Assembly (NCBI GenBank): GCA_012270875.1
Contig: JAAXHI010000367.1
Location: 1 to 37,797 of the forward strand
Length of the DNA: 37,797 nt
Source of the DNA: Candidatus Poribacteria bacterium
GTDB taxonomy: Bacteria; Poribacteria; WGA-4E; WGA-3G
Direction of reading: 5' to 3'
The position numbers were made by a program, and so were the translations under genes. The stretch's first letter is position 1; each line of letters starts with the position of its first letter. The notes beneath the pieces are model-generated. The model made no database searches and had not been told where the DNA came from. It saw only the letters and a program-made list of their open reading frames with translations. Of the stretch, positions 943-12,964 are shown one piece after another.

Positions 943-1065
943 CCTAATCTGATAGGAGGGCTTCAACCAGCCAAATTAAGGGCTGACGGCTTATGAGGTC
1001 CGAATCTATAAAACTGTATTACCAATTCGGGACTTATCAATCAAGGCAAAAATGGAGTTTCTTTT
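943..1065 (-). pseudogene. Fragment of the C-terminus of the ECF-TPR-redoxin gene (duplication scar)
   Basis: Aligns with ~4247-4370. Minus-strand translation contains LIDKSRIGNTVL and, in another frame, QPLIWLVEALLSD-stop, matching LIDKTGNWQYSLV and QPLIWLVEALLSDA-stop of the intact gene. Confidence 0.8.
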
Positions 1066-1198
1066 CGGTGTTCACAGAAAATTTGTTGAACACACGTTAA
1101 ATGTTGGTGAAATGCTAATATTTTAGCATTTTAGGAAATTATGTCAAGTGAAAATTCAAAAAAAAAATTTAACGTGAATTAACCTAATAGAGGCCTCT

Positions 1199-2635
1199 TT
1201 AGATGTCAACGCGGATGAAGAAAAGAAAAGCACCTGCGAATAACACTACAAAAAACAGCAATAATAACAGAATATCCGTAGCAGCAGTATTGTATGCTCC
1301 ACTGAAACTGATGCGGTCTTCAAATTTCGGAATTGATTCAAAACGCACGGGTTTTTGTGATGTCCCTTCTTTGGGACCGAGTGCGTGTGGACTCTCTGGA
1401 TCGGCACGATCGGTTTCAATGAGAAACGTTCTGAATTCACCGGCGTATCGGCGCACCTGCTTTAAAAATTGGACGTGCCGTGTAAAACCGGTGCCAGCAA
1501 GGGATTCGATAGCATAACGGACGCTTGACGCAGGCGATATGCGGGTTATGGATCTCGCCAGTTGAATCTGGGCAATCTGGGCATCTAAGTACTCTTCATT
1601 CAAACTTTCATTGCGTTTGGCATCTTCCACGATGTATTTCGTCCAGAACAACGTCCCTTCTGTTGCCGGAATCTCCCGTGAAGGGGTTTTGTCGTCATGC
1701 CGACGGCGGATATATTGTGCGTCAAGATTCTGGTACAGACTTTGCCAGCGGGCATTGAATTCGGCACTGGTCATCGTCGGCTGTAAACCACTGGTCATTG
1801 TGCCAAGCGTAGAGGGCAGCAAGACTACCCAAAAGGTCCAAATCAGTAAGAGAATTGTGAGACTCGTTGATGAGTTACTCACACAAGAAGATATGAGCAG
1901 CCCCAGTCCGAGAAAAATTGACACATAAACAAAAGCGATAAGAACGATAACTCCCAGTCGTCCGCACTCACTTGGTCCGAATGAAATACTTCCTGAAGTG
2001 TAAAGGAGAAAGAGGTTAATTAATGCGGTCATCAAAAAAGGGATACTGATAGTTATCAATGCTGTGAGAAACTTGCTTAGCAATACGGTGCCGCGTGAAA
2101 CGCTGTTCGACAGTATCAGTCGCAGTGTGCCGTGTCCTTGCTCCGAGGAGATTGCATCGAAAGTGAATAGGATAGCAATCAAACTTAGAACGACAGAGAT
2201 GATATTACTCCAATCAACGTTTGTGTAATCCGGCATGATATTCCACAGGTTTGGGTTGGACTGTGGATATTCCATTCGCCATATCGCTTTGAATGAAAAA
2301 CGGGTCGGTAACATAACCGAACGATCACTAACGCCGTCAGCGGATTCAGGTATAAATGTCTCACTGCTGCTGGTGCAAAAAGAGAGTGCAGAGGGCTTTT
2401 TGTAGAGTGTGCCTGGTCCTGCTATCAGCAGATTATACAGCGTATCAGCGTTTGATCTCATTTTATTTAAGGACATTGAGACCTTTTTTTGATATGCTGC
2501 GGATTGTGCTTTGTATTTGCCAAGATACCCGATTGCGTTGACGATCATCAGAACGAGCAGCAGTATCATTGTAAAGGCGAATCGCAGACTGTTCAGGTGG
2601 TCATAGAGTTCGCGTTTTGTAATGTGCCAAATCAT
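1199..2635 (-). CDS. ABC-2-type transporter permease
   Basis: MIWHITKRELYDHLNSLRFAFTMILLLVLMIVNAIGYL...DAISSEQGHGTLRLILSNSVSRGTVLLSKFL; multiple TM segments. ATG at 2635 preferred over the 2884 ORF start because that extension overlaps the next gene and runs through a leader element. Confidence 0.85.
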   Translation of the reverse strand: MIWHITKRELYDHLNSLRFAFTMILLLVLMIVNAIGYLGKYKAQSAAYQKKVSMSLNKMRSNADTLYNLLIAGPGTLYKKPSALSFCTSSSETFIPESADGVSDRSVMLPTRFSFKAIWRMEYPQSNPNLWNIMPDYTNVDWSNIISVVLSLIAILFTFDAISSEQGHGTLRLILSNSVSRGTVLLSKFLTALITISIPFLMTALINLFLLYTSGSISFGPSECGRLGVIVLIAFVYVSIFLGLGLLISSCVSNSSTSLTILLLIWTFWVVLLPSTLGTMTSGLQPTMTSAEFNARWQSLYQNLDAQYIRRRHDDKTPSREIPATEGTLFWTKYIVEDAKRNESLNEEYLDAQIAQIQLARSITRISPASSVRYAIESLAGTGFTRHVQFLKQVRRYAGEFRTFLIETDRADPESPHALGPKEGTSQKPVRFESIPKFEDRISFSGAYNTAATDILLLLLFFVVLFAGAFLFFIRVDI

Positions 2636-2736: not shown

Positions 2737-4239
2737 CTATACTTCCTGCCGCACGAAGATTAAAAACGTTATCATGAACAGTACAATGTTGATAAGCAGT
2801 AGGCAGGCAATATCGCCGCTGGCGCGTTTTGCCCCGATTAATACGTCTGCTCGGTGGTAAGAGAACTGAGGCAAATCGCTCCAATCGACTTTTCCTTGGT
2901 CTTTAGCGAACCATTGCCGCGAGGAAAAAGCCGCCTTATCAAAGAAATAATCAATAATCGTTTGCCGATACTGTTGGACTGTTGTGATGAAATCCTCAAT
3001 GCCATGAAAGTCTGTTCCTGCCCACGCTTCAGTTGCGAAATCATACATTGCCGCTGGTGAGAAACGCATCAGGTTTTTAGCAAAATCTGCTTTGCGAACG
3101 TGGACCTGATTCAGAGTTTTCTGACGAATTTGCCACGTTCGCTCTGCTGCGCGGATCCGTCGGGGTTCTGTGAACTGAAAATAAGCCTTGACATGAGGCA
3201 TCAGGGGTTCTGCCTCGGGCTTGATACCGATACTGCGAGTTTCTGCCTTAGAATACATGAGTGTTGTCGGATTGGAAGTATGAAACGTACCCACAGTTCC
3301 GCCATAGCGTATATTAGCGTTCAGGTCTTCGCCCTCAATTTCATCGTTCCTTAAAAAATCTATCCGATCTCTTTCAAACGCTTCCCAAATCTGTTCAATT
3401 TCACGATAAGCGGATGCCAACTGAGAAGACGTATCCCAAAGCCGATTGACGGCGAATACGCTGAGGCTTGGATAGATGAGAACCAGGGTACTCCATATCA
3501 CCATTGCCAACATCAAGGCAGTCGCAGCACGGCGAGTGATCACGGAGATTAACAAACCTATTAGATAGAAAGCAGAGAGATAGATAATTGAGATTAGCAA
3601 AATGCCACCAATTCGGAGCCAATCGTCACCACTCAGCAAAATTGACCCAGATAGAGAAAATAGAATCAGCACGAGTAGCAGACTCATGAGTATCGGAAGA
3701 ATCAGGCACGCCATCGCGCTGATGTATTTTGCCAACAGAATAATGGGACGACTGACGGGGTTTGCCATCGTTAACCGGAGCGTACCTGCTTCTCGTTCTC
3801 CAGCGATGGCATCGTGGGCAAAAAGCAGTGCCAGTAGACTGAGAATTACCTGAAAGATTAAGATCAAATCAACACTGGTAAACAGGTTGAGGAAAGGGTT
3901 ATCGGCGCTGTGTGATTTAGTATCCCAAAGCGTTGGGACAAGGGTATGCCTGAAATTGATAGAGTTGCCAAGTCGGCGGTCCAAACCGGCATTGAAAATG
4001 CTCAACGGGTTCGGTGGTCGGTCCAAAAAGATTTTCAGACTCGAATAGGTTCTCGCGCTCGAAACTTCCTGAGAGTGTTGTTGTACAGCAGTATTATAGC
4101 TTGTCAGGCGACGTTCATAATCGTCAATCAGTACAACAGTATTCGCAACAACGAGCAGCAGTGTGACAACTATTGCAACGAGAAACCGAAAGGTCATTAT
4201 ATTGGCGAGTAATTCTCGCCGAATGAGTGTCAGAAACAT
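2737..4239 (-). CDS. ABC-2-type transporter permease
   Basis: MFLTLIRRELLANIMTFRFLVAIVVTLLLVVANTVVL...DAIAGEREAGTLRLTMANPVSRPIILLAKYISA; ATG at 4239 is 8 bp past the upstream stop. Confidence 0.85.
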   Translation of the reverse strand: MFLTLIRRELLANIMTFRFLVAIVVTLLLVVANTVVLIDDYERRLTSYNTAVQQHSQEVSSARTYSSLKIFLDRPPNPLSIFNAGLDRRLGNSINFRHTLVPTLWDTKSHSADNPFLNLFTSVDLILIFQVILSLLALLFAHDAIAGEREAGTLRLTMANPVSRPIILLAKYISAMACLILPILMSLLLVLILFSLSGSILLSGDDWLRIGGILLISIIYLSAFYLIGLLISVITRRAATALMLAMVIWSTLVLIYPSLSVFAVNRLWDTSSQLASAYREIEQIWEAFERDRIDFLRNDEIEGEDLNANIRYGGTVGTFHTSNPTTLMYSKAETRSIGIKPEAEPLMPHVKAYFQFTEPRRIRAAERTWQIRQKTLNQVHVRKADFAKNLMRFSPAAMYDFATEAWAGTDFHGIEDFITTVQQYRQTIIDYFFDKAAFSSRQWFAKDQGKVDWSDLPQFSYHRADVLIGAKRASGDIACLLLINIVLFMITFLIFVRQEV

Positions 4240-4246
4240 CGCATTA

Positions 4247-6427
4247 TCACGCATCTGAGAGGAGTGCTTCAACCAGCCAAATTAAAGGCTGACCCTTCAT
4301 CAGATACGGACTTACCAAACTGTATTGCCAATTTCCAGTTTTATCAATCAAGAGAAAAAATGATGATGTTGTTTCAATCTGATAAGCCTTCCTCACCTCT
4401 TGGCGTGGGTCAAACAGAACGGGCCAAGGGGGTGCATGTTCAGCCAGAAACTCCTGTGCTTGGTGAGGCGTGCCACCATCACTGATGCCCCAGACAACGA
4501 CATCATCGTTTTTGCTGAATTTCTCGTAGACAGTTTTGACCTCCGGAATTTTATCGCTGTATACCCCAAATCGCGAAGTCTCAACACTCAGCAAAACAAC
4601 CTTCCCAATCATCGCTGATAGCGAGTAGGTCTCGCCTTCCAGAGTTTCTAACCGGAAATCCGTTGCTTTCTTATTCAATCTATCCGTGATAAATTTCTGA
4701 CGAAATTTTTCGAGATCCGCCGCTTCTCGGCTCCGATATTCGGCTTCGGTAGCTTCAAGGAATGTCTCAAATGTATCAGTGGTTTTCCCTCGTGCCATTT
4801 GATGATAGACGCGCTTCAATCCTGCTTGCGCTTCAACGTGAGGCTTGGGAGCAAAGTGGGCATCGGCATAGTAACGCATTGCTGTTTCCCAATCTCCTAT
4901 GCCTTCTGCTGACCGCCCCAACATATAGAAGTAATTGATGGTACGCTCATTGAACCTTCCCCAGAAGGCTTCCAAAAAATCGGGGGCATTTTCGAGAAGT
5001 CCATCGTATGCTTCTCGCCACCGTTCTTGCTGGAGGTAGACTTCAGCGTGTAAGCGAGAGAAGTCCTTGTTGGCTTCTTCTACAGTTCCGTTGTTGTTTT
5101 CAATGAGCCATATCTGTTCCTCTTTTTCCGATAATCTGATTGCAGCACACGCTAAAATCTCCAAGGCTTTATCTAACCGATTGTTAAACTTTAATCGCCA
5201 TTTAACCGCTTCCTTATAAGCCCAACCGAACCACTGCTGTGTCTCCTTGCACATAGCAAGATGTGCCTTTAAGAGTCCGTCAATAAGTCCATCAAGGTAA
5301 TCATCGCTTGCGAGAGAACGATCTTGCTCGACTAACCTCAGCATTTGTTCGTATGCTAATAGATACCAAGATAATATTGGGGCATCCGAGGCGGTAAACT
5401 CATCAATGACGCGTTGGTAATAGTGCCACTGATGAGATGCATCTTCACTCCGTTCAGCTAATCCTAACAATGCTGTTAGATAAGCTTCAGTTTTGGGGTA
5501 TTGCAACATCTTATCAAACAAACTGTTTGGGACATTCTTGGTGCGGTTAGGAAGGCTCATATATCCCCAATAGGCAGTGTCTAAGACTTCTGAGGTTTCG
5601 GGTTGTGTCCGCAGCGTATATTCGATTTCCGAGCAAATCTTTTTTTTCGCCTCTTCTTCTGGAAACATTTCGCCTATAAGCCTCCATCGAGAACCATAAG
5701 CCTCTAAGTTCGCCGGATTGGATTCCAGTGCCTGTGCGCTAATCTCTAAAGCCTTATCAAATTCGCCGGACCTATGATGGTTTGTAATCTGTATTGCCAG
5801 ATTCTGTTGTTGATTATTACTTGGCATTTGAAAAAATTCTCCTGTCTCTTGTAAACGCTTTCGTGCCCGGTGGAGTCGACTCACAATCGTATTCACCGAT
5901 ACACTTAAACAATCGCCGATCTCCTTTGTTGTCATTTCACCGAGATAGTAGAGGGTCATTACCGTCCGTTCACTCTCCGGTAGTTTTGTCAGAAGTTCTT
6001 CAACGATTTCACAACGACGCTCAATTGCTTCTGATTCACGCTGCTCCAATATATAACGCTCGTAAGTTAAGTTATCTATTGCTTTTACAGACGTGTCATC
6101 CAGCGGTTGCATCACAGGCCTTTGCCTTCGTATCCAAGTGATGCAAAGCCGATTCGCAATCACGTAGAGCCACCCCGCAAATTGGCAGGGGTCCTTAAGC
6201 GTCGCAAGTTTTTCGTATGCTTGGAGAAAAGCGTCTTGCGTAATCTCTTCGGCATAGTGGAAATCGCCTATCTTTCGCCACACAAGGGTATGAACACTTT
6301 GTTGATACTTTTGGACTAAAGTGTTAAACGCCTCATCGTCGCCTGACAAAATTCCGCGGATTAACTGAGCATCGTCTTCTCTTTTCACGAGGTTTTCTCC
6401 TAACAAGCGGGTTCGGTATGTTCGCAT
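4247..6427 (-). CDS. ECF-type sigma-70 factor fused to TPR-like region and C-terminal thioredoxin-fold domain lacking CXXC
   Basis: N-terminal sigma r2 (DEAFNTLVQKYQQSVHTLVWRKIGDFHYAEEITQDAFLQAYEKL) and r4 (LPESERTVMTLYYLGEMTTKEIGDCLSVSVNTIVSRLHRARKRL); helical repeats; C-term DFRLETLEGETYSLSAMIGKVVLLSVETSRFGVYSDKIPEV...VLFDPRQEVRKAYQIETTSSFFLLIDKTG. Confidence 0.88.
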   Translation of the reverse strand: MRTYRTRLLGENLVKREDDAQLIRGILSGDDEAFNTLVQKYQQSVHTLVWRKIGDFHYAEEITQDAFLQAYEKLATLKDPCQFAGWLYVIANRLCITWIRRQRPVMQPLDDTSVKAIDNLTYERYILEQRESEAIERRCEIVEELLTKLPESERTVMTLYYLGEMTTKEIGDCLSVSVNTIVSRLHRARKRLQETGEFFQMPSNNQQQNLAIQITNHHRSGEFDKALEISAQALESNPANLEAYGSRWRLIGEMFPEEEAKKKICSEIEYTLRTQPETSEVLDTAYWGYMSLPNRTKNVPNSLFDKMLQYPKTEAYLTALLGLAERSEDASHQWHYYQRVIDEFTASDAPILSWYLLAYEQMLRLVEQDRSLASDDYLDGLIDGLLKAHLAMCKETQQWFGWAYKEAVKWRLKFNNRLDKALEILACAAIRLSEKEEQIWLIENNNGTVEEANKDFSRLHAEVYLQQERWREAYDGLLENAPDFLEAFWGRFNERTINYFYMLGRSAEGIGDWETAMRYYADAHFAPKPHVEAQAGLKRVYHQMARGKTTDTFETFLEATEAEYRSREAADLEKFRQKFITDRLNKKATDFRLETLEGETYSLSAMIGKVVLLSVETSRFGVYSDKIPEVKTVYEKFSKNDDVVVWGISDGGTPHQAQEFLAEHAPPWPVLFDPRQEVRKAYQIETTSSFFLLIDKTGNWQYSLVSPYLMKGQPLIWLVEALLSDA

Positions 6428-6721
6428 TCGCCAAAAGGCTTAATTGAATTGAATGTTGAGGTTGGTAAAATTATTAAACCGTGTGGCACGAGATTTATGC
6501 CTGCTGTTATTAAAGACGCGATTTTAGGGGGTAAAAATTGCATAATCTGAAAAAATCGGAACAGGACCTATTTTCAGATATTTTATCCCGTTCATTCGTA
6601 GGTTACAAAGCCGGAGATTTTGAAAAAAGGTTGAAAAAAACTTTGCTGAGAAAAGAGTGTTAGGGAAGAATTGCGCGTTGTGTTCAGATTGCTTGAAAGC
6701 GGGGTGAGTTGATTTAAAATA

Positions 6722-6808: not shown

Positions 6809-8287
6809 CTATTCAAAACTGCCGACTTTCGCGGCTTCAGGTGCGCGTGTCGGGAGTTCTTTCTTGGCTAACGTGTCTTCTGGCACATAACCGGAATAGT
6901 CAGAAATCTGACCGTGCGTCAACGCATACACCACGACGTTTGTCATGAAACGATACACACCGGGTGAATAGTGGACACTACGTGTCGGGAGACTGACAGA
7001 TTCCATTGCGCACATGTAGTCACGACGGACAACGATAACGGACAACTTTTCACCGACGGAGATACCTTCGAGGTAGTTCCGTTTCGGTGGACGTGTGCCC
7101 CACCAGAAGATGTCGAATCCGACTGGGGGTCCGCCCATCTCATAGAAGTTATCGTAGACTTCGTGATCGTTAGCAATCCGTTCGATCTGATACTCAGGCA
7201 TGACGTAACGCATCTGTGCGAGGAAGAGACGAATCATCGCCTGCGCAGGAGCGTTCACACCGCAGTCGTCAAAGACGAGGAATCCACCTTTTTCGACGAG
7301 GTAGCGGCGCATACCGGCAGCTTCAGTCTCGGTGAGACGGCTGTCCATTTTACCACCACCATACTGCCGTCCGAGCAAGTTACGTGAACGGACGAGAGAC
7401 GGATCGTGTCCTGTCATAAAGACGAACGGTGTTTTGAAGAGGTTAGCATCGGTAAGTTTCAATGCGCCGCCTTCAACGTTCATGTCGGTTTTGATTTTCG
7501 TACGTTCGTTGAGCCACTTCGTCAATGCGTTCAAGGAAGAGGCATCTGCCCACCAGTCAGAGAGACTGTGTCGGATCCGTGTGAAACGGAATACGCCGCG
7601 GATGTCTTTACCTTTACCGATAACGCGACCACCGGGTTCGCCTCTCGGCAGGGGTGGCACTTCAACGTTACCGAGGGTGATGTTTTCAACGACATCGCCG
7701 AGGGCATCGCGTGCTGCACCGACGTTTTCGACCATTGCGAGGCCGGGTGGACGTTCAAAAGCGACTTTCACCTGTACTGCAGTCCCTGCAACACCACGAC
7801 CGATGTTAGCCGGTCCGGCGGAAGGGGCACTTGCGACAGGCGCGGAGAACGCCAAGGCACCAGGAGCATCCGATACGGGTAAATCCGTATGTGTTACAAC
7901 CGTCGGCACCGGGGCGTTGGGTGTAACCACTTTCGGGACATTCGGGTTGATTGGCGCGTCAACTTTGACGGTCTGGTTTGAGAATTCGAGTACCGTCTGC
8001 GGTTGGAAGCTGGACTTCGCGACAAACGCAGTCGTTACACGCGGTTGCACCTGAACCTGTTCGACAACGACCGTGTTTTGCGTCGGGACAGTCGGCTTAA
8101 TAACCGGCTTCACGACGGGTTTCCGTACCTTAGGCTTCGGCGGCTCCTTCGGTTGGAGCACTTCAGCTCCGACGAGGTCTTTAAATTGTTCCGTTTGCGT
8201 GACTAAGTAAATGCCAGCAACGAATATAATGACCGCGTGGAGTATCAATGAAGTCATAAAGGCACCAGAGGTTCTTTTTACACTCAT
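6809..8287 (-). CDS. TonB-like N-terminal anchor + proline-rich linker + DUF4159 domain protein
   Basis: MSVKRTSGAFMTSLILHAVIIFVAGIYL (SxxxH in TM), KEPPKPKVRKPVVKPVIKP linker, C-term FRFTRIRHSLSDWWADASSLNALTKWLNERTKI...LVEKGGFLVFDDCG...YEMGGPPVGFDIFWWGTRPP. Confidence 0.85.
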   Translation of the reverse strand: MSVKRTSGAFMTSLILHAVIIFVAGIYLVTQTEQFKDLVGAEVLQPKEPPKPKVRKPVVKPVIKPTVPTQNTVVVEQVQVQPRVTTAFVAKSSFQPQTVLEFSNQTVKVDAPINPNVPKVVTPNAPVPTVVTHTDLPVSDAPGALAFSAPVASAPSAGPANIGRGVAGTAVQVKVAFERPPGLAMVENVGAARDALGDVVENITLGNVEVPPLPRGEPGGRVIGKGKDIRGVFRFTRIRHSLSDWWADASSLNALTKWLNERTKIKTDMNVEGGALKLTDANLFKTPFVFMTGHDPSLVRSRNLLGRQYGGGKMDSRLTETEAAGMRRYLVEKGGFLVFDDCGVNAPAQAMIRLFLAQMRYVMPEYQIERIANDHEVYDNFYEMGGPPVGFDIFWWGTRPPKRNYLEGISVGEKLSVIVVRRDYMCAMESVSLPTRSVHYSPGVYRFMTNVVVYALTHGQISDYSGYVPEDTLAKKELPTRAPEAAKVGSFE

Positions 8288-10741: not shown

Positions 10742-11398
10742 ATGATGATAAGCATACAAAGATTTTTCTTATTGATTATTGGATTACTATTTTGTGTACT
10801 GGGTTGCGCTCGCGAGCATGTTGATATGCCTATGCTTGATGATCATGCAGCACCTATGGAAACACATGAACCTGTTGACATTGAGGCTGCTTTTGCGCAA
10901 AACCTTTTGCCGATCCTTACGGCGAGATGTGCGCTCTCTGGATGTCATGTCGCTGACGGTCCTCACGGTTTGGATTTCAGGACGTACGCATCTTTTGTCG
11001 CCGGAGGCGAGCACGGTCCGGCGTTCATTCCAGGGAATGCTGAAGCAAGTGAGGTTATCGAACAAATCGTTGAAGGCAAAATGCCGCCGCCGCCGCGTGA
11101 TCCGCTAACCGATGCCGAGATTCAACTTTTTAGAGATTGGATTAATCAGCAGGAAGCTCAGGATCATGTTGTCCAACACGAGCATGGCGATGAAGAGGAC
11201 ACAGACGACGAGCATGACGAGCATAGCGATGAAGAAGATGCTGACGGAGATCATGATGCTGATGATGACGACGAGCATGACGAGCATGATGACGTGGATG
11301 ACGATGATGGGCATGCCGGTGATGACGACGAGCATGATGACGACGATGACAACGGTCATGACGACGATGACGACGAGCATGACGATGATAACAACTAA
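10742..11398 (+). CDS. Lipoprotein c-type cytochrome (PSCyt1-like, CX4CH) with Asp/Glu/His-rich tail
   Basis: MMISIQRFFLLIIGLLFCVLGCAREH lipobox; ILTARCALSGCHVADGPHGLDFRTY...EGKMPPPPRDPLTDAEIQLFRDWINQ; tail HEHGDEEDTDDEHDEHSDEED...GHDDDDDEHDDDNN. Confidence 0.85.
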   Translation: MMISIQRFFLLIIGLLFCVLGCAREHVDMPMLDDHAAPMETHEPVDIEAAFAQNLLPILTARCALSGCHVADGPHGLDFRTYASFVAGGEHGPAFIPGNAEASEVIEQIVEGKMPPPPRDPLTDAEIQLFRDWINQQEAQDHVVQHEHGDEEDTDDEHDEHSDEEDADGDHDADDDDEHDEHDDVDDDDGHAGDDDEHDDDDDNGHDDDDDEHDDDNN

Positions 11399-11983: not shown

Positions 11984-12964
11984 ATGTTTACAAATACACG
12001 AAGGTCTTTCCTACTTATCATAGGATTGTTATTTTACTTAGTTGGGTGTGATTCCGAGCGAGGCGGTCTCTTATTGCTCGATAATATTTTATCTGAAAAC
12101 GAGCAGGTTCCGGCTATGGAAAGTGTTGAGACCGCTAACGCTGAAATTACTTTTGAACAGAACCTTTTGCCTCTTCTCACGCAAAGATGCGCGTACGCTG
12201 GTTGCCATGTTGCTGGCGGACCCAAAAACCTTGACTTCAGCACATATCAAGCTTTTATAAAGGGCGGAGATGAAGGTCCCGTATTTATTCCAGGCAATGC
12301 GCAAGGCAGTGCTATTATTGACGAAATCGTCTCCGGTAGAATGCCCATCGGTGGTCCGCAGCTGACCAATGCGGAAATCCAACGCTTTACTGATTGGATT
12401 AACAATCAAGAAGCAATCCCGGATAGATCCTTTGATGAACCACCTGAGACACAAACTCCAGAATCTACTGACGGTACAGTTTCTTTTCAGCAGGACCTTC
12501 TGCCTATTCTCACGGCGCGGTGTGCCTATAGTGGTTGTCATGATGCTAACGGTCCCGACGACCTTGATTTCAGGACATACCAAACTTTCATACGAAGCGC
12601 AGAGGACGAGGATGTATTTGTCCCAGGTAATGCCCGAAGCAGCGATATTATTGAAGAAATTGTCTCTGGCAGAATGCCCCCTGACGGTCCTCCATTGACT
12701 GCTGCGCAAATTCAACTCTTCAGAGATTGGATTAATCAGCAAGACCCTGCCGATTTTCCTAATCTCCGTTATGATGATGACGACTACGACGATGATGACT
12801 ACGACGATGACGACTATGACGATGACGACTATGACGATGACGACTACGACGATGATGACGATGACGACTACGACGATGATGATGACGATGACGACGATGA
12901 TGATGACGACGATGATGATGACGACGATGATGATGACGACGATGATGACGACGATGATGACTAA
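11984..12964 (+). CDS. Lipoprotein with two PSCyt1-like c-type cytochrome domains (CX4CH) and a poly-Asp/Tyr tail
   Basis: MFTNTRRSFLLIIGLLFYLVGCDSERGG lipobox; RCAYAGCHVAGG (12188-12208) and RCAYSGCHDANG (12521-12541); GRMP motifs; tail (YDDDD)x5-YD7-YD30. Confidence 0.88.
   Translation: MFTNTRRSFLLIIGLLFYLVGCDSERGGLLLLDNILSENEQVPAMESVETANAEITFEQNLLPLLTQRCAYAGCHVAGGPKNLDFSTYQAFIKGGDEGPVFIPGNAQGSAIIDEIVSGRMPIGGPQLTNAEIQRFTDWINNQEAIPDRSFDEPPETQTPESTDGTVSFQQDLLPILTARCAYSGCHDANGPDDLDFRTYQTFIRSAEDEDVFVPGNARSSDIIEEIVSGRMPPDGPPLTAAQIQLFRDWINQQDPADFPNLRYDDDDYDDDDYDDDDYDDDDYDDDDYDDDDDDDYDDDDDDDDDDDDDDDDDDDDDDDDDDDDDD
12770..12961 (+). repeat. GAT/GAC codon repeat tract encoding YDDDD repeats and 30 consecutive Asp
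   Basis: 64 codons: 57 Asp and 7 Tyr, mixed GAT and GAC. Confidence 0.95.

Follow-up and report, generated by a model that had tools for sequence, protein, structure and literature searches.

The window analyzed here, a stretch of 37,797 nucleotides from Candidatus Poribacteria, contains a gene (4247-6427, minus strand) in which an ECF sigma factor is joined through a long TPR-like helical array to a redox-dead redoxin domain of the TlpA/ResA type. This sigma-TPR-dead redoxin architecture is a new form of C-terminally extended ECF factor. Because the fused copies found all lack the catalytic Cys and most free-standing copies retain it, the comparison suggests that a dead enzyme has been reused as a signal sensor in the fused sigma tails. 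The reading favored here, at roughly even confidence, is an autoregulated ECF sigma factor with a pseudoenzyme sensor tail that came from a duplicated TPR-oxidoreductase and works through protein contact, not thiol chemistry.

Domain organization of the fused protein

The single open reading frame of 726 aa recognized in the first-pass annotation stands and is free of internal stops. The strand, which had been left unstated, is the minus strand, and the start is probably a GTG at position 6388, giving a product of 713 aa, because the TTAGGAG...GTG context (TTAGGAGAAAACCTC-GTG) is conserved among orthologues. Near the N-terminus lie Sigma-70 region 2 (residues 36-102; 6122-6322, minus strand; Pfam PF04542 Sigma70_r2, E 1.2e-12) and Sigma-70 region 4 (residues 139-191; 5855-6013, minus strand; Pfam PF08281 Sigma70_r4_2, E 7.9e-14), and the NCBIfam sigma70-ECF model scores 98 bits over a cutoff of 42.9. 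No model for region 3 is present among the Pfam and NCBIfam matches of the protein, which is an ECF sigma factor (sigma-70 group 4) bearing regions 2 and 4 without region 3. No transmembrane helix, signal peptide or hydrophobic segment was found in the fused window protein.

The sigma domain is followed by a TPR-like helical array (residues 206-581; 4685-5812, minus strand), the helices of which are mostly predicted by AlphaFold at pLDDT 85-95 and are matched by Foldseek to consensus TPR and OGT TPR structures; Pfam TPR matches in the protein are weak. The redoxin domain occupies the C-terminal end (residues 582-726; 4250-4684, minus strand), with Pfam AhpC-TSA covering residues 584-697 (E 3.2e-13), and contains no Cys. 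At the former WCGPC site (residues 619-623; 4559-4573, minus strand) the protein reads RFGVY, and phmmer alignment to thioredoxin-family structures in the PDB places SRFGVY over SWCGPC column for column, in agreement with the earlier claim that both Cys are gone. The former cis-Pro site likewise reads SS in the alignment, as had been proposed (residues 688-689; 4361-4366, minus strand), within a TTSS stretch with one additional residue. This last change is common only to the window copy and its closest orthologue, a Pro at this site being kept in other sigma-fused copies.

A model of the tail (residues 575-726), built from a deep alignment of 77 related domains, has a pLDDT of 87 and a pTM of 0.86; ResA structures match it best in the PDB, at a TM of about 0.86 (by target length), which confirms the predicted thioredoxin fold. 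The pLDDT falls below 50 only within the former active-site loop. The tail is weaker in the first full-length model, yet TPR proteins and ResA were already matched by it. Taken with the Pfam and NCBIfam matches, the fold bears out the domain order given by the first-pass annotation, namely sigma regions 2 and 4, helical repeats and an AhpC/TlpA-type end. A chance AhpC match is ruled out by fold and alignment, and a redox switch is rejected for the window copy because Cys is absent from its redoxin domain.

Pairwise dN/dS of the dead redoxin is about 0.20-0.28 in six of seven fused pairs and 0.53 in the pair formed by the window and L078, where synonymous change is low in that stretch. The dead domain is still under purifying selection; with dN/dS well below 1, the fold is maintained though the catalytic loop varies freely. 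The redoxin is kept in every full-length type-A copy (the window type, below), and its constraint by dN/dS is about equal to that of the TPR part.

Fusion and cysteine loss among relatives

The closest relatives of the window are all Candidatus Poribacteria MAGs, and orthologues of the fused gene occur in more than 12 other genomes, single-contig assemblies included. The first-pass annotation had allowed that the reading frame might be an assembly fusion, an explanation ruled out by the identical fusion in many independent MAGs, among them single-contig chromosomes.

Redoxin domains were surveyed by running our own HMMs over all fetched loci and removing duplicates, which left 39 sigma-fused and 89 other domains. 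The nucleophilic Cys is kept in none of the 39 distinct sigma-fused domains (34 lack both Cys and 5 have the second Cys only) and in 75 of the 89 stand-alone, BlaR1(M56)-fused or open-ended relatives, giving a Fisher p of 2e-21 for Cys loss against fusion in a simple test that ignores relatedness. The fused redoxins divide in the tree into two separate groups, one being type A and the other uniting types B, C and D, which does not support a single fusion event for all types. Because the tree places the fused copies in two separate groups only, the independent support for fusion with Cys loss is two events, with which a sign test cannot reach significance; the tree-based test of fusion against Cys loss gives a p of 0.5 from too few pairs.

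All sigma-fused copies of type A lack both Cys. The un-fused copies, both in type-A clusters and in other families, carry an intact WC(G/A)xC, and the sole seemingly un-fused type-A copy to break this pattern represents the 3' half of a fused gene whose frame is broken. In relatives, the fused gene often adjoins an intact WCGPC copy, as in L236, from another genus of the family, where a fused dead redoxin protein of 715 aa lies beside an intact copy of 587 aa. The second fused lineage is represented in the window's own genome by a type B copy (C230, L009) that reads WKVWNDFG and adjoins two ABC-2 genes. Among fused relatives, the second Cys is retained in some (type D), and in others a Cys lies close to the cis-Pro site.

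As a guard against locus selection, the window's own genome and five relatives were searched with PF00578, and no sigma-fused redoxin with intact Cys was found among the long ORFs checked; the fetched, unexplained PF00578 ORFs of more than 600 aa have no sigma domain. Inspection of orthologues for CXXC, as the first-pass annotation had advised, found it intact in no sigma-fused orthologue examined. Cys loss as a unique mark of fusion is ruled out, some stand-alone copies having lost the first Cys too.

One clade of stand-alone redoxins lacks the first Cys only (WNSFC, WHSFC and WNGFC; L188:10452-11507, L079:15517-16692, L192:2470-3642 and relatives), and several first-Cys-less stand-alone redoxins share gene clusters with M56-redoxin receptors. 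Very long ORFs with two redoxins were also seen, one of which (L186:3002-6733, with M56) bears one dead and one intact domain and another (L185:724-3501) two dead domains.

The junction in the window looks like the product of an in-frame fusion between two adjacent genes, because a relic Met and an upstream AGGAG or AGGGG coincide with the start codon of the un-fused gene. The putative remnant of the start region of the once free-standing gene (5825-5843, minus strand) consists of AGGAG, 11 nt and the ATG of Met201, where homology with the un-fused proteins begins in the window and six orthologues; this ATG and the residues after it are the same as in un-fused relatives and are kept in all seven orthologues with this junction. 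The junction of other fused copies lies further along, inside the TPR part, and may reflect either a further fusion event or a deletion that came afterwards. A single origin within type A is not rejected (AU p 0.229).

Operon, promoter-like element and proposed mechanism

The sigma-redoxin gene is followed by the genes for ABC-2 permease a (2737-4239, minus strand; Pfam ABC2_membrane_2 and DUF3526) and ABC-2 permease b (1199-2635, minus strand; Pfam), both in an order kept in relatives. The ATG of permease a (4239) lies 7 nt past the sigma-redoxin stop codon, and this gap and the conserved gene order sustain the link to a downstream permease that had been proposed earlier. Beyond permease b lies a broken remnant of another TPR-redoxin C-terminus (947-1084, minus strand; 44% identity over 45 residues, 3 stops), which a tandem duplication of the unit has left behind. 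It is followed by a further copy of permease a, truncated by the contig end (1-932, minus strand; 59% identical to permease a); the window contains one unit together with these two fragments. The upstream neighbor encodes a DUF4159 protein (6809-8287, minus strand; Pfam, gene order), and a 492-aa ORF occupies the DUF4159 place in most relatives' clusters. The order in relatives is DUF4159, sigma-TPR-dead redoxin, intact TPR-redoxin, permease a and permease b, repeated up to three times, where the intact TPR-redoxin often has a signal peptide-like start and the cluster often ends in BlaI and an M56 receptor with a TPR-redoxin of its own. ABC-2 permease genes follow most fused gene types, the permease family is large in the window's own genome, and the loci examined show no ABC ATPase next to the permeases. 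Elsewhere in the window, two proteins (10742-11398 and 11984-12964) carry long C-terminal stretches of low complexity, rich in Asp or in His and Asp.

A predicted ECF-type autoregulatory promoter, ATTATGCAATTTTTACCCCCTAAAATCGCGTCTTTAA, lies at 6510-6546 (minus strand) and presents a -35-like ATGCAAT and a -10-like CGTCTTTAA in a conserved block. Orthologous clusters share the conserved 37-bp block, ATTATGCAATNTTTTCTGCCCRAAATCGCGTCTTTAA, upstream of their fused genes, and the window copy (6546-6510) is located about 120 nt 5' of the GTG start. Its spacing and CGTC box presumably mark a resemblance to an ECF promoter. A PWM also locates the block upstream of further sigma family members and gives no match in the shuffled control. 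Upstream of long-tailed sigma genes, a strict regular expression matches in 51 of 152 cases, as against 38 of 772 for other long ORFs and none of 152 for shuffled upstream regions. With a relaxed pattern, the window's own genome yields 21 places, as opposed to 0 with its reverse, and the window site alone is free of mismatches. Reading by eye reveals a type-specific variant of the element at the equivalent place in each of types B, C and D. We infer that the 37-bp element would be read by the window's own sigma factor. More broadly, an ECF-like element, ATTATGCA-N-CGTCTTTAA, is common to many sigma-fused and other genes, and the paralogue-specific variants of its -35 part could permit the mapping of a lineage-specific sigma-promoter code.

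In the proposed mechanism, a gene for a TPR and TlpA-like oxidoreductase of the same cluster would have been duplicated and joined in frame behind the ECF sigma gene, after which the joined copy would have lost its catalytic Cys while keeping its fold and TPR surface. The tail, presumably cytoplasmic, would bind the partner or client of the intact copy, or pair with the intact copy itself, and the availability of sigma regions 2 and 4 to RNA polymerase would depend on this binding. Free sigma factor would then read its own ATGCAAT...CGTCTTTAA promoter and raise expression of the operon, comprising the sigma factor itself, the intact oxidoreductase where present and the two ABC-2 permeases. Both the control of the sigma domain by the tail and the tail's binding target are drawn from inference. 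For the titration idea in the window strain, it bears noting that no intact type-A partner was found in its own genome, which is about 81% complete. The dead tail and a live copy adjoin in relatives' clusters, making the likely trigger a testable question. A broader proposal, which we put forward tentatively and at somewhat less than even confidence, is that of a recurrent sigma-pseudoenzyme design, whereby ECF sigma factors of one family have at least twice adopted a duplicated redox enzyme stripped of its catalytic Cys, a decoy that senses the availability of a partner or client and not redox.

Alternatively, the sigma domain could be controlled by a tail that acts as a generic TPR scaffold or lid, in line with the proposal made for ECF42; the dead redoxin would then just cap the array and recognize nothing linked to the former enzyme. 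TPR tails are essential in ECF42 (PMC8999054), the TPR part is the longest and best predicted part of the window protein, and a cytoplasmic tail type without redoxin (L034) also precedes ABC-2 genes. Nevertheless, the presence of the redoxin in every full-length type-A copy under about the same constraint as the TPR part, and the dead redoxin of a second, separate sigma lineage, make a mere cap rather unlikely. That the tail is a roleless leftover of fusion, with a sigma factor that is constitutive or controlled by other means, would suit an active-site loop that varies freely among fused copies and has the lowest confidence in the tail model, but is improbable given that the dead domain has a dN/dS well below 1, that many species maintain the full length and that there are two lineages. 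Equally doubtful is the production of both the full sigma fusion and a free dead TPR-redoxin subunit from the relic AGGAG-ATG (5825-5843): although the ATG and a purine-rich AGGAG or AGGGG are present in all seven orthologues with this junction, the 11-nt spacing is long, the junctions of other fused types (S2, L065, L080) have no relic start, and the conservation may reflect the protein sequence GEF(F/L)QM. A redox or metal role that persists by way of other residues, or by contact with the disulfide of the intact copy, might draw on the second Cys of type D or the Cys near the cis-Pro site of some fused relatives, but is very improbable for a window domain without any Cys.

Relation to other sigma factors and redoxins

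The sigma family to which the window protein belongs numbers at least 38 copies in its own genome and is abundant in many others of its family, with few copies in the other families of the phylum. In most paralogues the sigma domain is followed by a single transmembrane helix and a long outer part made of Sortilin/BNR, WD40 or Kelch propellers, or of trypsin and TPR; the roughly 38 paralogous sigma factors of the own genome (loci L009-L037) display a family-wide expansion of membrane-anchored Poribacteria ECF factors. The window protein belongs to a smaller class without a transmembrane helix, and 36 of the 48 long-tailed ORFs of this class in the sample fall in the two redoxin-tail groups. 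Another tail of this class, TPR-like and about 385 aa long, is found in L007:364-2064, L034:2452-4134 and L146, directly 5' of an ABC-2 permease pair in L034. A protein of about 400 aa that joins an ECF-like sigma factor to the GTPase part of a tubulin/FtsZ protein is conserved in three genomes (L014:9050-10255, own genome C149; L153:597-1826; L157:3134-4348). Within this Poribacteria family, many members carry at least 38 related sigma genes per genome, and many of these genes have a promoter variant of their own, which points to a signaling layer in sponge symbionts; the literature searched, with incomplete coverage, contained no description of it and nothing relevant on Poribacteria ECF factors or sigma-redoxin/thioredoxin fusions.

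Precedents for C-terminally extended ECF factors are ECF41, ECF42 and ECF57 (PMC8999054, PMC8103513), the triggers of which are mostly unresolved according to reviews (PMC8103513). ECF42 of Streptomyces, Xanthomonas and Pseudomonas shares with the window protein an ECF core and a C-terminal TPR tail, with no anti-sigma gene seen adjoining, and its TPR extension is essential for activity (PMC8999054) and thought to act through protein contact (PMC8999054, PMC8103513). The ECF42 tail is about 200 aa long, whereas that of the window protein comprises about 380 aa of TPR and the redoxin; no Pfam match to YCII, an ECF42-type neighbor, was found among the window neighbors scanned, and no ECF42-specific model is among the listed NCBIfam matches of the protein. 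ECF57 and the planctomycete WD40-tailed ECF factors resemble the Poribacteria sigma factors in their lineage-specific expansion and long C-terminal modules (PMC8999054, PMC8567305), many own-genome paralogues likewise carrying WD40 or other propellers, and the planctomycete factors are a precedent for the wider Poribacteria family (PMC8567305). The window protein differs from both in having neither a transmembrane helix nor a propeller and in ending in a dead redoxin. ECF41/SigJ and ECF56, with its SnoaL_2 tail, offer another likeness, since a small enzyme-like fold on the sigma core tunes activity (PMC8999054, PMC3426412, PMC7730460), although the window tail is of a different fold and has an intact sister enzyme in relatives' clusters.

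Among redoxins, the BlaR1-type M56 receptors of relatives' clusters carry a related TPR-redoxin as the tail of another, nearby signaling protein, and in contrast to the sigma-fused tails their redoxins keep both Cys in 13 of 14 cases. In L064:1920-4675, L081:3226-5981 and others, BlaI accompanies a BlaR1-like M56 receptor in which a TPR-redoxin with intact CXXC replaces the usual penicillin-binding domain. The TlpA/ResA/DsbE oxidoreductases share the thioredoxin fold of the window tail (ResA, TM about 0.86), and the ResA family model is the best NCBIfam match, below cut-off, of an un-fused sister protein. Unlike these oxidoreductases, the window tail has lost both catalytic Cys of the CXXC and the cis-Pro (RFGVY, SS), and the fused form, being without a hydrophobic segment, has no signal peptide or membrane anchor.
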